NCBI RefSeq assembly: GCF_002198675.1
Contig: NZ_MWLL01000089.1
Coordinates: 1 to 47,039 of the forward strand
Length of the DNA: 47,039 nt
Direction of reading: 5' to 3'
Source of the DNA: Kineosporia sp. R_H_3
GTDB taxonomy: Bacteria; Actinomycetota; Actinomycetes; Actinomycetales; Kineosporiaceae
The position numbers and the translations under genes were made by a program. Below are positions 3,002 through 47,039 of this stretch, piece by piece (the first letter of the stretch is position 1; each line of letters begins with the position of its first letter). The notes under the pieces were generated by a model, which searched no databases, was not told the origin of the DNA, and saw nothing but the letters and a program-made list of their open reading frames with translations.

Positions 3002-3061
3002 CGAATGACTGAAGGCCCGGATCCTGTTCCTGGATCCGGGCCTTCAGTCATTCGTAGCGGG
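2995..3061 (+). terminator. Long perfect hairpin downstream of and overlapping tRNA-fMet copy 1
   Basis: A perfect inverted repeat has 30-bp arms (2995-3024 and 3032-3061) and a 7-nt loop. Its core is GAAGGCCCGGATCC paired with GGATCCGGGCCTTC. No T-tract follows, which is common for actinobacterial terminators. The left arm includes the last seven bases of the tRNA (CCCGCTA), so the hairpin can in principle compete with acceptor-stem pairing. A related hairpin follows the second copy. Terminator or 3'-end processing signal is the best reading. Confidence 0.75.
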
Positions 3062-4689: not shown

Positions 4690-5664
4690 ATGACCGAGAC
4701 CGCGCCGCAGGCCCCACCAGCACGGTCCGCCGCCGGCCGGCCGGCCCCGGCCACCCGGGCACCTCGCCCGGGTGGCCCGGGGCCGCGCCGGCCCGCGCGG
4801 CTGCTGCGCCGGGGGACGCCGTACCTGTTCCTGCTCGTCCCGCTCGTGCTGCTCGTCGGCCTGACGTACCTGCCCGTTGCGAACATGGTCTGGTACTCGT
4901 TCACCGACTGGGACGGTCTCGACAAGACCAAGACGTACGTCGGCCTGGACAACTACGTCGACGTCTTCACCCAGCCCCGCAACGTCCAGGTCTTCAAGGT
5001 CAGCCTCTACTACTTCGTCGCGTCGTTCGCGCAGATGGGGCTGGCCCTCTACTTCGCGACGGTGCTGTCGGCCAGGCTCCGCTTCCGCAGCATGTGGAAG
5101 GGGATCCTGTTCTTCCCCTACCTCATCAACGGGGTCGCGATCGGCCTCATCTTCCTGGACTTCCTGCGGCCGGACGGCGGTCTCGACACGACGCTGCGGG
5201 CCGTCGGGCTGCAGAGCCTCATCCACCAGTGGACCGGCGACCCGGCGATCGTCAACTACACGCTGGCGTCGGTCTCCGTGTGGCGCTACCTCGGGCTGAA
5301 CTTCGTCATGTTCCTCGGGGCCATCCAGTCGATCCCGGCGGACATCTACGAGGCGGCCGAGATCGACGGCGCGGGCCGGTGGGCCCAGTTCCGCTGGATC
5401 ATCCTGCCGTCGATCCGGCCGATCGTGTCGCTGTCGTTCATCCTCGCCATCTCCGGCTCGCTGTCGGTCTTCGAGATCCCGTTCATCATGACCAACGGCG
5501 GCAACGGCTCCGAGACGTTCGTCATCCGCGCGGTGAAGCTCGCGTTCAACCTCGAGAAGGTCGGGCTCGCGTCGGCGATGGCCGTCGTCCTGCTCCTCGT
5601 CGTGCTGCTCGTGAGCTGGGTCCAGCGCCGGCTCGTCCCCGACGAAGGGGTGGACATCGCATGA
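4690..5664 (+). CDS. Sugar ABC transporter permease 1 (MalF/UgpA type)
   Basis: The 324-residue protein has a Pro/Ala/Arg-rich cytoplasmic N-terminus of about 40 residues and then six predicted membrane helices, beginning GTPYLFLLVPLVLLVGLTYL. The ATPase-docking EAA loop is clear as EAAEIDGAGRWAQFRWIILP. It starts 6 bp after the binding-protein gene, and its TGA overlaps the ATG of the second permease (ATGA at 5661-5664), so the pair is probably translationally coupled. It forms the channel with the next gene product. No ATPase gene is present, so a shared MsiK-type ATPase encoded elsewhere is presumably used, as is known for actinobacterial sugar transporters. Confidence 0.93.
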   Translation: MTETAPQAPPARSAAGRPAPATRAPRPGGPGPRRPARLLRRGTPYLFLLVPLVLLVGLTYLPVANMVWYSFTDWDGLDKTKTYVGLDNYVDVFTQPRNVQVFKVSLYYFVASFAQMGLALYFATVLSARLRFRSMWKGILFFPYLINGVAIGLIFLDFLRPDGGLDTTLRAVGLQSLIHQWTGDPAIVNYTLASVSVWRYLGLNFVMFLGAIQSIPADIYEAAEIDGAGRWAQFRWIILPSIRPIVSLSFILAISGSLSVFEIPFIMTNGGNGSETFVIRAVKLAFNLEKVGLASAMAVVLLLVVLLVSWVQRRLVPDEGVDIA

Positions 5665-6494
5665 CCCGGGTCCGTACCGGCAGCGTCCTCGCACGGGGCG
5701 GCGTGTACGCGAGCCTCGTGCTCGCCACGGTCGTCGTCGTCCTGCCGATCGCGATCGTCGTCCTCGGCGCGTTCAAGACCGACCAGGAGTACCTCACGAG
5801 CCAGCCGCTCGACCCGCCGGCCGACTGGTCGAACGTCTCGAACTTCGTGACGGCGTTCCGCGACGGCGAGATGGTGTCGGGCTTCCTGAACACCGCGGTC
5901 GTGCTCGCCCTCGCGGTGACCGGGACCGTGCTCATCGGCGCCGGGGCGGCCTACGCGATCGACCGGTTCCGCTTCGCCGGGCGCAGTGCCGTCCTCGTCG
6001 CGTTCCTCGTCGCGACCCTCGTCCCGGGCGTGACGACCCAGGTCGCGACGTTCCAGATCATCAACGGACTGGGGCTCTACAACACGATCTGGGCCGGGGT
6101 GCTGCTGTTCGCCGGCACCGACATCGTGTCGATCTACATCTTCTGGCAGTTCATGCGCTCGATCCCGCGGGCGCTCGACGAGGCGGCCACCCTCGACGGG
6201 GCCGGCCACCTGCGGATCTTCTTCCGCATCATCCTGCCGAACCTCAAGCCGGCGATCGCCACCGTGGTCATCATCAAGGGGATCGCCATCTACAACGAGT
6301 TCTACATCCCGTACCTCTACATGCCCGACCACAAGACGATCGCGACGTCCCTGTTCGCCTTCAAGGGACCCTTCGGGTCGCAGTGGGAGGTGATCTGCGC
6401 CGGCATCGTCATCATCCTCGTGCCGACGCTCGTCGCGTTCCTCGCCCTGCAGCGCTGGATCTACAACGGGTTCACCTCGGGCGCGACGAAGTGA
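5661..6494 (+). CDS. Sugar ABC transporter permease 2 (MalG/UgpE type)
   Basis: The 277-residue permease carries an N-terminal helix (VYASLVLATVVVVLPIAIVV), the family-typical segment GAFKTDQEYL, and the EAA loop DEAATLDGAGHLRIFFRIILP. The C-terminus ends QRWIYNGFTSGATK, close to the usual QRxFxxGLTxGAVK ending. The start is the ATG overlapping the previous stop. It partners with permease 1. The gene ends 40 bp before the convergent ROK gene, with a small hairpin between them. Confidence 0.94.
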   Translation: MTRVRTGSVLARGGVYASLVLATVVVVLPIAIVVLGAFKTDQEYLTSQPLDPPADWSNVSNFVTAFRDGEMVSGFLNTAVVLALAVTGTVLIGAGAAYAIDRFRFAGRSAVLVAFLVATLVPGVTTQVATFQIINGLGLYNTIWAGVLLFAGTDIVSIYIFWQFMRSIPRALDEAATLDGAGHLRIFFRIILPNLKPAIATVVIIKGIAIYNEFYIPYLYMPDHKTIATSLFAFKGPFGSQWEVICAGIVIILVPTLVAFLALQRWIYNGFTSGATK

Positions 6495-6510
6495 CGGGCC
6501 AGCACGACCC

Positions 6511-6526
6511 GGCCGCCGACGCGGCC
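6511..6526. terminator. Possible bidirectional terminator hairpin
   Basis: GGCCGC-CGAC-GCGGCC forms a perfect 6-bp stem with a 4-nt loop in the 40-bp gap between two convergent genes. In DNA this GC-rich such a stem can arise by chance, but the location fits a terminator. Confidence 0.4.
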
Positions 6527-6534
6527 CCGCCCGG

Positions 6535-7725
6535 TTACGCGGGGTCGCCGCCGCGCGGGGCCAGCTCGGCCTGCAGGACGAGCGCCGCGGCCCCGAGGGC
6601 GGCCGACTCGGGCCCGTGCGTCGACAGGCGCACCTCGATCGGCCCGCTGCCGCGGGCGAACCGGGTGCCGGTGACGACCTCGGTGACGACGGGCAGGTAT
6701 AGCGGGCCGGCGACGGCGAACGCCGGCCCGGTGAGGACGAGCAGGTCGGGGTCGACGACGTTGACGAGGGTGTGCGCGGCGACCGCGACGAACCGGGCCG
6801 ACCGCTCGACGACCTCGAGCGCGGCCGGCTCACCGGCGAGCGCCCGCCGTGCCAGCGCGCCGAAGGCGGCCAGGGTCGGCCGGTCCTGCGGGCCGAGGTC
6901 GACGCCCGCGGCGCGGGCCCGCTCGACCGTGACCGCGGTGCCGCCGAGCATCTCGACGCAGCCGCGGTTGCCGCACCAGCACAGCGGTCCGTCGACGTCG
7001 ACGGTCACGTGCCCGATCTCGCCGGCGTTGCTCGTCGCGCCCCGGTACACCTGGCCGCCGGACAGCAGCCCGGCGCCGATGCCCTGCCCCATGAAGAGGG
7101 CGGCGATGGTCGTCGTCGCGGTGATGCCGTCCGCCCAGTACAGGCCGACCGCCGTCGCCGTCGCGTCGTTGTCGAGCAGCACCGGCAGGCCGGTGCGGTC
7201 CTCGAGCCGGGCCCGCAGCGGGAAGTCCACCCAGGCGGTCATCGCCGGCGGGGCGAGCGCGATGCCGGACGCCGCGAGCTGCGGCCCCGGTGCGACGACG
7301 CCGAGCCCGATGAGCCGGTCGCGGGGGACGCCGGCGCGTTCGAGGCTGCCGTCGACCTCCGTGCCGATGACGTCGACCGCCTCCCGGGGGTCGGTGAGCG
7401 CCGGCCGCCGCCAGCGCGAGACCGTCGCCCCACCCAGGTCGGCGAGCACGAACGTCGTCGCGTCCGCCCCGAGCTGCACGCCGAGGGCGTACCGTGCGGT
7501 CGGCTCGATCCGCAGCAGGGTGCGCGGCTTGCCGCCGGTGGACGCGCCGCGGCCGACCTCGACGACGAACCCGTCCTCGAGGAGCCGTCGGACGACGTTC
7601 GACACCGTCGCCTGGGTCAGCCCCGTCGCCTGCGCGAGCTCGACGCGGCTGATCATCCGCGACGCACGGATGATGTCGAGGATCATCGTGCGGCTCTGCG
7701 TCGGGTGCGTCGCCACGGAAGCCAC
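6535..7725 (-). CDS. ROK family transcriptional regulator
   Basis: The roughly 396-residue protein begins with a winged-helix domain (MISRVELAQATGLTQATVSNVVRRLLEDGFV). The sugar-kinase-like ROK domain follows, with the zinc motif C-W-C-G-N-R-G-C followed by E, and the conserved NAGEIGH. It should sense a sugar and repress the adjacent transport and hydrolase genes. The start is taken as GTG 7725, because a TACTGT -10 lies exactly 6 nt upstream with no Shine-Dalgarno, suggesting a leaderless mRNA; GTG 7716 or ATG 7686 are alternatives. It is convergent with the ABC operon and divergent from the glycosidase gene, the usual position for a local regulator. Confidence 0.92.
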   Translation of the reverse strand: MASVATHPTQSRTMILDIIRASRMISRVELAQATGLTQATVSNVVRRLLEDGFVVEVGRGASTGGKPRTLLRIEPTARYALGVQLGADATTFVLADLGGATVSRWRRPALTDPREAVDVIGTEVDGSLERAGVPRDRLIGLGVVAPGPQLAASGIALAPPAMTAWVDFPLRARLEDRTGLPVLLDNDATATAVGLYWADGITATTTIAALFMGQGIGAGLLSGGQVYRGATSNAGEIGHVTVDVDGPLCWCGNRGCVEMLGGTAVTVERARAAGVDLGPQDRPTLAAFGALARRALAGEPAALEVVERSARFVAVAAHTLVNVVDPDLLVLTGPAFAVAGPLYLPVVTEVVTGTRFARGSGPIEVRLSTHGPESAALGAAALVLQAELAPRGGDPA

Positions 7726-44460: not shown

Positions 44461-44467
44461 GCCCCCA

Positions 44468-44473
44468 AGGCTA
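44468..44473 (-). promoter_or_regulatory. -10 element for a leaderless response regulator transcript
   Basis: TAGCCT on the minus strand ends 7 nt before the ATG at 44460. Spacing fits a leaderless start. No -35 is obvious. Confidence 0.4.
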
Positions 44474-44530
44474 CGATCGGCGCCGTCGCGGTCAACACCC
44501 CGGATCAGGGGGCCGCGCCCAGGAGGCCCG

Positions 44531-45871
44531 GTGCGGCGGCGGCTGGTGGTCAGCTCCCTCGTGACGACGCTCGTCGCGATCGTGCTCTTCGCCGCGCCGC
44601 TCGCGGTCGTCATCCACCTCGTCCTCCTGCGCGACTCCGACGCCGGGCTCGAGCGGGCCGCGCTGCGCCTGGCCGGTTCCCTGGACCCTGCCGACGTCGC
44701 GGGCTCGGCGCGGGCGGCGGGCGCGGACGACGGGTCGGGCCGCCGCGCCGGGGTGCGCCTGGCGGTCTACGGCCCCGACGGCCGGCGCCTCGCGGGGGAG
44801 GGACCGGCCACGACGCCGGTGCTCGCCGTCGACGACACGTGGCCGCGGCAGTCGGACGCCGCCGGTTCGCGCGTCGTCGAGATCCCCGTCGAGGAGCGAG
44901 GGGTCGTCGTCGCGATGGTGCGGGCCGCGGAGCCCACGACGGCGGTGCGGACCCGGACCGTGCAGTCGGTCCTCGGGCTGGCCGCGCTCGGCCTGCTCGT
45001 CCTCGGCCTCGCCGCCCTCGTGGCCCGCCGGCTCTCGGCCCGGGTGTCGGCGCCGATCCAGGACCTCACGACCGCGACCCGGGCGCTCGCCGAGGGGGTC
45101 TTCGCCGTCGACATCCGCCGCTCCGGCATCCCCGAGCTCGACGAGGCCGCCGCCGCGCTCACGGCGACGGGGGAGCGGCTCGGCGGTCTGCTCGAGCGGG
45201 AGGCGGGCTTCGCGGACGACGCGACGCACCAACTGCGCACGCCGCTCACCGGGCTGCGCCTCGCCGTCGAGGCGGCCCTGGCCGGGCCGGACCACGCGCT
45301 GCGGGCCGGGCTCGGCACGGTCTCGGAGGCGACCGACCGGCTCGTCGTCGTCGTCGACGACCTCGTGTCGCTGCGCCGGCCGGCCGGGTCCGGGGCCGCC
45401 GACCCGCAGGCCCGGCCGCTCGCTCCGGAGACGCTCGGCCGGATGGCGCAGTCGCGCTGGGCCGCCGCCTACGCCCGTGCCGGCCGCCCGCTCGACGTCC
45501 TCGTCACGGCGCGTTCGGCCGGTACGGCCGCGGCCGAGGCCGCCGTCCGGCAGGCGCTGGACGCGTTGCTGGACAACGCGTTGACGCACGGCAGGGGGGC
45601 GGTGACGGTCACGGTCCGGGACGCGCACGGTGCGGTCGCGGTCGACGTCGCGGACGAGGGCGACACGGTGCGGCTGCCGAGCGCGGAGCTGTTCCGACGA
45701 GGGGTGGCGACCGCGGGCGGCAGCGGGATCGGGCTCGCGCTCGCGCGCTCGCTCGTCGCGGCCGAGGGGGGCCGGCTCGAGCTGACGTCCCGCGAGCCGA
45801 CCCGGTTCACGCTGCTCCTGCCCGGTGCCGGCCGCCCCGGCGCCCGCCGGGCGGAGGGCGAACCGGCTTAG
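44531..45871 (+). CDS. Sensor histidine kinase
   Basis: The 446-residue membrane kinase has a first transmembrane segment (residues about 7-33), an extracytoplasmic domain, a second transmembrane segment (about 143-165), a HAMP region and a HisKA domain with His233 in FADDATHQLRTPLTGLRLAVE. The ATPase domain has N-box DALLDNALTHG and G-box GGSGIGLALARSLV. GTG 44531 has AGGAGG 4 nt upstream. It is divergent from the OmpR-type regulator, an unusual layout for a cognate pair. It is followed after 182 bp by the multicopper oxidase gene. The stimulus could be metal or redox, by context. Confidence 0.94.
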   Translation: MRRRLVVSSLVTTLVAIVLFAAPLAVVIHLVLLRDSDAGLERAALRLAGSLDPADVAGSARAAGADDGSGRRAGVRLAVYGPDGRRLAGEGPATTPVLAVDDTWPRQSDAAGSRVVEIPVEERGVVVAMVRAAEPTTAVRTRTVQSVLGLAALGLLVLGLAALVARRLSARVSAPIQDLTTATRALAEGVFAVDIRRSGIPELDEAAAALTATGERLGGLLEREAGFADDATHQLRTPLTGLRLAVEAALAGPDHALRAGLGTVSEATDRLVVVVDDLVSLRRPAGSGAADPQARPLAPETLGRMAQSRWAAAYARAGRPLDVLVTARSAGTAAAEAAVRQALDALLDNALTHGRGAVTVTVRDAHGAVAVDVADEGDTVRLPSAELFRRGVATAGGSGIGLALARSLVAAEGGRLELTSREPTRFTLLLPGAGRPGARRAEGEPA

Positions 45872-45884
45872 CCAGGACTTAGCC
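45867..45884 (+). promoter_or_regulatory. PhoB-box-like direct repeat CTTAGCC-N4-CTTAGCC
   Basis: Exact 7-bp repeats at 45867-45873 and 45878-45884 are separated by AGGA. The 7+4 spacing is the typical OmpR/PhoB recognition layout. It overlaps the kinase stop codon and lies 170 bp before the multicopper oxidase start. Confidence 0.5.
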
Positions 45885-46053
45885 GGGTCCCCCCAACCCG
45901 GGGCTGCCCGCGGCGCCGTCTCCTGCCGAGGATCGTCCTCGCTGGTCCTGCCGGGTGCGACGGCGGACGGCGCCGGGGCGGCCCTGCTGGGCGTTTCGCC
46001 CCGTCGAAGCGGGAGGCCCGTGCGGCCGACCAGGGGCGAAGGAGCGCAGCACC

Positions 46054-47039
46054 GTGACCATCGACAACGAGATCCGGACGGACGGCGTCACGGCCGCACC
46101 GCGGCCGGGAGAGTCCCCCGCGGCGCCCGAGGCGGAACGGCCGCGGAGGGGACCGTCCCGCCGGACGGCGTTACGGCTCGGGGCCGCGGGCACCGCCGCC
46201 GCCGGCGTGGCCGCGGCACGTGTCGTCGCGGTGCCGGACCTGACGAACCAGGGGCAGATGTCGGCCCGCGGTCTCGTCGGCGCGGCGGCGATGGCGTTCT
46301 CGGACGCCATCTACGTCGAGGCGTTCCCGACGAGCCCGCTGATCCTCAGCCCGTTCTCCGACCCGCTGCCGGTCCCGAAGGCGATGCGCCCGGTCCCGCC
46401 CTCGGAGTGGAAGGCGTGGCCCGACCCTCCCGGGCCCGGCGCCGGCCAGCAGACGAACGCGGACGCCGACGAGCGGCACCAGATCTGGTGCGACCAGACC
46501 CCGGGGGCGAGGCCTGGTCTCGAGCCGCTCGTCTACGAGATCGACCTGCTCGTGCGCGGGCACTCGTTCACGACCTCGAAGGTGCTGCCGATCGACTCCA
46601 AGGGGCGGCCCACGGTCTCCTTCGACGCGACCGGGTCCACCTACGCCGCCGGCACCGTGCGCTCGCTGCCGCAGAGCACGATCTACGGTTTCAACGGCAC
46701 CTTCCCCGGGCCGATGATCAACAACGAGTACGGCCGCCCCGCGCTCGTGCGGTTCCGCAACCGGCTCGACGAGAACCCGTGGGGGTTGGACCGGCAGGAC
46801 TTCGGGGCGCCGGACTGGTCGTTCCTCACCCACCTGCACAACGCGCACACCGCACCCGAGAGCGACGGCAACCCGCACTACACGATGAAGTACGGCCCCA
46901 AGTACCAGGGCTACCGGCCCGGTGAGTGGTGCGACAACCTGTACCTGAACTGGCCGGCGGGTGGCGACGACCGGGAGAAGCAGAGCTTCTTCTGGTTCCA
47001 CGACCACCGGATGGACCACACCGGCTCGAACGTCTACAA
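46054..47039 (+). CDS. Tat-exported multicopper oxidase (3' truncated by window edge)
   Basis: About 328 N-terminal residues are visible and the frame is open to the window end. A Tat signal with S35-R36-R37-T-A-L40 and a hydrophobic stretch to about residue 57 indicates export in folded form. The first copper motif is H260-L-H262-N-A-H265 and the second is W-F-H316-D-H318-R-M-D-H322-T. Domain 1 landmarks are GFNGTFPGPMINNEYGRPALVRFRNRLDEN. The pattern is close to CotA and phenoxazinone synthase-type oxidases. GTG 46054 has AAGGAG 9 nt upstream. The two-component system upstream may control it in response to copper or oxidant. Confidence 0.93.
   Translation, partial: MTIDNEIRTDGVTAAPRPGESPAAPEAERPRRGPSRRTALRLGAAGTAAAGVAAARVVAVPDLTNQGQMSARGLVGAAAMAFSDAIYVEAFPTSPLILSPFSDPLPVPKAMRPVPPSEWKAWPDPPGPGAGQQTNADADERHQIWCDQTPGARPGLEPLVYEIDLLVRGHSFTTSKVLPIDSKGRPTVSFDATGSTYAAGTVRSLPQSTIYGFNGTFPGPMINNEYGRPALVRFRNRLDENPWGLDRQDFGAPDWSFLTHLHNAHTAPESDGNPHYTMKYGPKYQGYRPGEWCDNLYLNWPAGGDDREKQSFFWFHDHRMDHTGSNVY

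Follow-up and report, generated by a model that had tools for sequence, protein, structure and literature searches.

Two copies of the heptamer CTTAGCC, separated by the tetranucleotide AGGA, lie at positions 45867–45884 of the 47,039-nucleotide stretch of Kineosporia sp. R_H_3 DNA analyzed here (the window), between a divergent OmpR-type regulator/kinase gene pair and a gene for a multicopper oxidase (MCO; this copy is called MCO-A). Probably, these copies are half-sites for a tandem dimer of the phosphorylated linked regulator, which would control an exported MCO, most likely as an activator. In such a system, the kinase would phosphorylate the regulator in response to an outside signal. The phosphorylated regulator would then dock as one head-to-tail dimer on the 7+4 repeat at the junction of the kinase and MCO genes, and the docked dimer would control transcription of the MCO, with activation as a better guess than repression. 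The MCO product would finally be exported. Apparently, this is a switch of an ordinary kind with an undescribed DNA site sequence. The original prediction had described this repeat with its 7+4 spacing, upstream of the oxidase gene and beside an OmpR-type pair, and our analysis confirmed the arrangement. The features of the locus are collected in Table 1.

Table 1. Features of the regulator/kinase/MCO-A locus, in window coordinates
Feature	Position	Strand	Remarks
OmpR/PhoB-type response regulator gene, 235 aa	43753..44460	-	PF00072 E 4.8e-23, PF00486 E 1.4e-12
Divergent regulator/kinase intergenic region	44461..44530	.	nearly invariant in 3 genomes
Membrane sensor histidine kinase gene, 446 aa	44531..45871	+	HAMP, HisKA, HATPase_c; orthologues in G011 and G012
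Half-site 1, CTTAGCC	45867..45873	+	overlaps kinase stop codon; core CTTAGC identical in 3 genomes
Half-site 2, CTTAGCC	45878..45884	+	11 bp after half-site 1; core CTTAGC identical in 3 genomes
Conserved block 2, CCCCCCAACCCG-N-GGCTGCC	45889..45908	+	19/20 columns identical in 3 genomes; promoter region?
Conserved block 3, GGTCCTGCCGGGTGCGACGGC	45944..45964	+	21/21 columns identical in 3 genomes; between box and MCO start
Conserved GGGGCGAAGGAG	46033..46044	+	12/12 columns identical in 3 genomes
MCO-A gene, 5' part, cut by window end	46054..47039	+	PF07732; start GTG at 46054

Regulators of the OmpR type bind to pairs of half-sites that are arranged head to tail. The CTTAGCC pair has this architecture, with two similar half-sites in head-to-tail order and a period of about 11 bp, although the order rests on a single base pair per half-site because GCTTAGC is almost palindromic. 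The spacing by itself carries no weight, and a bare 7+4+7 repeat is unremarkable in the window: nine exact repeats of any sequence were observed, compared with 14.85 expected from 100 first-order Markov simulations of the window. Repeats with at least three A/T per heptamer numbered two, compared with 0.59 expected from the simulations.

What raises the repeat above chance is its conservation in two relatives. We compared the genome of R_H_3 (G000) with two others of the same genus, G011 (contig C74) and G012 (contig C50), in which the order of the regulator, kinase and MCO genes is kept. The sequence CTTAGC-N5-CTTAGC occurs exactly once in each of the three genomes, and only at the MCO-A locus. 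From the end of its 17-bp core to the start of the MCO gene, the distances are 170, 167 and 168 nt. The spacers (CAGGA, GAGGG and CCAGC) and the flanks have drifted, while the core is kept at all 12 bases, including six A/T. For comparison, 100 of the 171 noncoding columns downstream are identical in all three genomes, and so are 15 of the 35 A/T columns. The kinase stop codon (TAG, 45869–45871 in G000) lies in the first copy of the repeat in G000 and G011; the G012 frame reads through the first copy and stops in the second. The repeat is therefore kept in two reading frames, which means that the DNA is constrained and not the protein. At the level of sequence, this shift of the stop codon is the strongest point for a DNA-level constraint on the repeat. 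A chance repeat, or a recent tandem duplication, kept through common descent would agree with the abundance of 7+4+7 repeats in the window and with the fact that the conservation is known from one genus. We regard this explanation as very unlikely, since it fails to explain why 12 of 12 core bases survived the changes in spacer and flanks and why the stop codon of G012 lies in the other copy.

Alternatively, the repeat could act in the kinase mRNA, as a hairpin or terminator at its 3' end (CCGGCT...AGCCGG). In G000 and G011, a 6-bp inverted repeat indeed extends across the two copies, and it folded in the RNA of the window. However, the fold is only modestly stable (z -1.87), and the outer pairs break in G012, where two of five tested pairs are unpaired with no compensating change while the CTTAGC copies stay. 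No T-run terminator was found, and no Rfam match came near a gathering score. These observations make an RNA element highly improbable.

The repeat might be a real binding site and still be read by an unlinked transcription factor, in particular by an iron repressor of the DtxR/IdeR type. The iron box of these repressors is a 19-bp palindrome, TWAGGTTAGSCTAACCTWA. An iron box would be fitting for an oxidase from a group in which one isolate, Kineosporia sp. A_224, precipitates iron, and work on DtxR turns up among the titles in the literature on the topic. The best match in G012 reaches 13 of 19 positions, a score attained by 2 of 500 simulated sequences, but the best matches in G000 and G011 reach 11 and 10, and at least 11 was attained by 93 of 500 simulated sequences. 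On these scores (11, 10 and 13 of 19, with an uncalibrated functional cut-off) we rejected a DtxR/IdeR box. An iron box would also leave the 11-bp period and the link to the two-component genes unexplained. We consider an unlinked reader quite unlikely.

The regulator contains a receiver domain (PF00072) and a winged-helix Trans_reg_C domain (PF00486), both above their gathering scores, as expected for an OmpR/PhoB-type protein. A scan of the named genomes yielded two good orthologues, along with five more weakly matching relatives. Orthologues in the two same-genus genomes are 96% and 99% identical to the window regulator, while two other genomes of the 13 in the family search contain relatives that are only 42–46% identical. 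Among 396 genomes of the order, no orthologue was found outside the genus at E 1e-58, the three matches being the genus itself. Pho boxes of the PhoB regulon have half-sites of the CTGTCAT type. The label "PhoB-box-like" in the original prediction thus holds for the geometry (7+4, 11-bp period) and fails for the sequence: the half-site here is CTTAGCC, and the regulator reaches 121 bits where the PhoB family cut-off is 296, so that we rejected a Pho box. For the heavy-metal CopRS/CzcRS/SilRS systems, too, regulator and kinase stay far under the family cut-offs (TIGR01387, 124 bits versus 279; TIGR01386, 77 bits versus 293).

These scores also bear on the suggestion that the system handles copper or manganese, which our analysis did not bear out. 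Between the membrane helices, which were placed by eye, the kinase contains no His, Cys or Met that is conserved in the three genomes except His29 at the membrane edge, and the heavy-metal cut-offs are not reached. Copper, manganese, iron and phenols are all possible as signal or substrate of the kinase–oxidase system. Kineosporia sp. A_224 was isolated as an iron-depositing (iron-precipitating) strain, in a paper that mentions no oxidase (PMC5552984).

The MCO-A fragment in the window contains only the two N-terminal copper-ligand motifs, and it shares 73–74% identity with the full-length orthologues of G011 and G012. The G011 protein matches MCOs of the CotA/bilirubin-oxidase type and contains the motif series that defines MCOs (HxH, HxH, HxxHxH and HCHxxxHxxxxM), namely HLHN 255, HDH 311, HPFHLH 678 and HCHN 739, with HCHNLAHEDHAM read in the sequence. 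While it resembles the CotA type in sequence and copper-ligand motifs, it is longer (757 aa versus about 513) and has a long N-terminal part. By eye, the RR start of this part resembles a twin-arginine signal. At E 1e-20, the oxidase is present in three of the 13 family genomes, which belong to a single genus; at E 1e-100 it is found in 3 of 394 class genomes, R_H_3 among them, and at E 1e-150 only in G000 and G017 among 396 genomes of the phylum.

The window ends one base before an N. Just past position 47039, in the extended piece L038, single-N scaffold joins occur at 3041 and 3854. The scaffold continues with three overlapping oxidase pieces, followed by genes that resemble the locus of a second oxidase (MCO-B, described below) in G012. 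These pieces seem to mix MCO-A and MCO-B, and the gene is probably misassembled here. Because the pieces overlap and lead into an MCO-B-like locus, the downstream neighbors on the scaffold are not assignable to MCO-A. Further along L038 are genes for a small membrane protein without Pfam or NCBIfam match (4837–5517, +), relatives of which follow most of these oxidases, and for a protein with three cupredoxin/plastocyanin-like domains (5662–6855, -). According to the translations, a gene for such a small membrane protein follows MCO-A in G011 and G012, MCO-B in G012, and the oxidases in L075 and L076; it was not seen after the oxidase in L074.

Oxidases that are not accompanied by the two-component pair provide a comparison. 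MCO-B is a related oxidase present in each of the three genomes G000, G011 and G012. In none of the three does the repeat occur at MCO-B, and no regulator or kinase relatives were found around it at E 1e-4 in stretches of 8, 9 and 13 kb. Oxidases that are 73–76% identical occur in G017 (two copies) and G460 (one copy). TTAGC-N6-TTAGC is absent from the 12 kb around each of these three homologues, and the same 12-kb regions contain no regulator or kinase relatives at E 1e-4. Genome-wide, G017 and G460 yielded no regulator relatives at E 1e-45, in a search that is weak for lack of a positive control. Among the MCO copies, the repeat is hence found only with the one that the two-component pair adjoins. 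By eye, GGTGCGAC appeared common to the regions upstream of MCO-A and MCO-B; this candidate was dropped, as it is not conserved in the G011 paralogue.

The original prediction took the oxidase to be a member of the regulon of this pair. This claim appears plausible in view of a DNA element that is conserved together with the pair and the MCO, and the oxidase is perhaps the only member. The genome-wide search for CTTAGCC-N4-CTTAGCC that had been proposed as a check returned one exact site in the 7.26-Mb genome (270 contigs) and no visible family of degenerate sites. With up to three mismatches, the pattern is in fact rarer in this genome than its reversed control (161 versus 323 matches), and we discarded the idea of a genome-wide regulon of such sites. 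Neither did we see a second tandem box in the regulator/kinase promoter region (44461–44530). By eye, this region contains TTGACC-N16-TAGCCT, which ends 7 nt before the ATG and is a possible promoter of the regulator gene, whose transcript would be leaderless. On the oxidase side, no sigma-70-like promoter was found at 45800–46100. Conserved block 3 (45944–45964) is possibly a transcription start, a leader or a promoter element, and GGGGCGAAGGAG is likely the ribosome-binding site of the MCO gene.

We also searched 374 genomes of the class for the box. TTAGCC-N5-TTAGCC occurs at 31 places, and an eye count gave about 77 places for the pattern in reverse. The word is hence not enriched in the class, and most of the 31 places may be due to chance. 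The following counts use 29 of these places, leaving out the window's own locus (L111) and one match in G425; three of the places (L138–L140) share one sequence within a single genus. Six of the 29 loci (3 kb each) hold a regulator or kinase gene: Pfam domains identified regulators in L128, L129 and L137 and kinases in L119 and L130, and L118 was identified by tblastn. L130 owes its place in this count to a kinase gene about 900 bp away from the box, and a strict count of two-component genes directly at the box gives 5 of 29 (L118, L119, L128, L129 and L137). Two control sets, both unmatched by species to the box loci, contained no such genes: 0 of 29 own-genome loci chosen by a loose pattern (L002–L030), and 0 of 37 three-kb pieces of loci chosen without regard to two-component genes. 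For the count of six, one-sided Fisher tests gave p 0.012 with the first control alone and 0.0005 with the two combined; for the strict count, they gave p 0.026 and 0.002, respectively. The recognition helices differ among the regulators of the box loci, including that of L137, which means that the box has readers in several subgroups or that the association is partly coincidence.

The linked regulator could bind the box and chiefly repress the MCO, or target the kinase gene by way of its 3' end; the overlap of the box with the kinase stop codon would fit such an action, as would the fact that no MCO promoter is mapped. In four of the six other loci, however, the box ends 71–75 nt before an exported-looking gene, which fits an activator (74, 73, 75 and 71 nt in L118, L119, L130 and L137, with the last distance taken from an internal ATG). 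This spacing is absent from L128 and L129. Repression, or action on the kinase gene, is in our view rather unlikely, and activation of the MCO remains the better guess. Judged by eye from the translations, all six loci have a gene for an apparently exported or membrane-bound protein across the box. In L119 (G401), the 3' end of a kinase gene, the box 30 nt further on and, after another 73 nt, the gene for a small exported-looking protein follow each other on one strand. This layout is that of the window, but the target gene is unrelated.

Relatives of the window kinase, about 40% identical, are encoded in 19 other genomes of the 394 in the class, and we inspected 20 loci of the 22 places that this search gave (all except G443:C15 and G452:C233). 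One of the 20 has a perfect box, GTTAGCC-CCGG-GTTAGCC, between the kinase gene and a divergent lipoprotein-like gene (L088 in G436, the same place as L118, where the box thus sits before a 40%-identical kinase relative). Five others contain 10/12 matches to the box (L092, L096, L099, L104 and L106), compared with 0.11 expected per locus. In the related two-component loci L094 and L098, a different 11-bp tandem repeat, CTCACAC-N4-CTCACAT, lies beside the regulator gene.

Several described systems resemble this locus in part. The closest working analogue that we found is CopRS from Corynebacterium glutamicum, which is reported to activate, on copper, a neighboring cluster with a putative MCO from a 9+2 tandem repeat (PMC3353115). 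As in the window, an OmpR-type pair adjoins a gene cluster that includes a putative multicopper oxidase; in contrast, the repeat TGAAGATTT-NN-TGAAGATTT is placed between copR and cg3286 and also activates copR (PMC3353115). PhoP from Mycobacterium tuberculosis, likewise an OmpR-type regulator from an actinobacterium, is described as needing a 7-bp direct repeat with a 4-bp spacer, the same 7+4 head-to-tail geometry (PMC4832192). Its half-site is TCACAGC (PMC4832192) instead of CTTAGCC, and one exact site per genome is found here. The PmrA box is reported to consist of 6-bp half-sites, CTTAAG/XTTAAT, with 5 bp between them, and one verified box lies at position -170 relative to the start codon (PMC3973317). 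The 6+5 head-to-tail geometry and a half-site that begins with CTTA recur in the window; yet, the PmrA half-sites are AT-rich and PmrA is proteobacterial (PMC3973317), and the DNA-binding domain of the window regulator matches PmrA weakly (E 6e-4). CutR from Streptomyces, with TAWATAAA as its reported site, was ruled out as a precedent. Within the open PMC literature, mainly titles and the openings of abstracts, we recognized no account of an actinobacterial response regulator with a TTAGCC tandem box.

It is conceivable, and we propose it tentatively, that (C/G)TTAGCC-N4-(C/G)TTAGCC is the box of undescribed actinobacterial OmpR-type systems, each of which would switch on one adjacent exported protein: a lipoprotein, a small secreted protein or, here, an MCO. 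In this Kineosporia group, with its iron-depositing isolate, the sensor would be reserved for a single extracellular oxidase that acts on metals or phenols. The locus offers a defined 18-bp candidate site, a linked regulator and a single target gene, and is open to simple testing. If the TTAGCC box were general, it would provide a route to assigning targets to anonymous actinobacterial two-component systems. What switches the oxidase on would bear on its substrate, in a group that includes an iron-precipitating isolate.

Finally, allowing up to one mismatch in the repeat returned one further match in each of G000, G011 and G012, an unrelated conserved palindrome. This sequence, CTAAGCG-N3-GCTTAGC, lies upstream of a gene with a thiolase-like start (L066 in G000, L065 in G011 and L067 in G012), and is perhaps a separate repressor operator.
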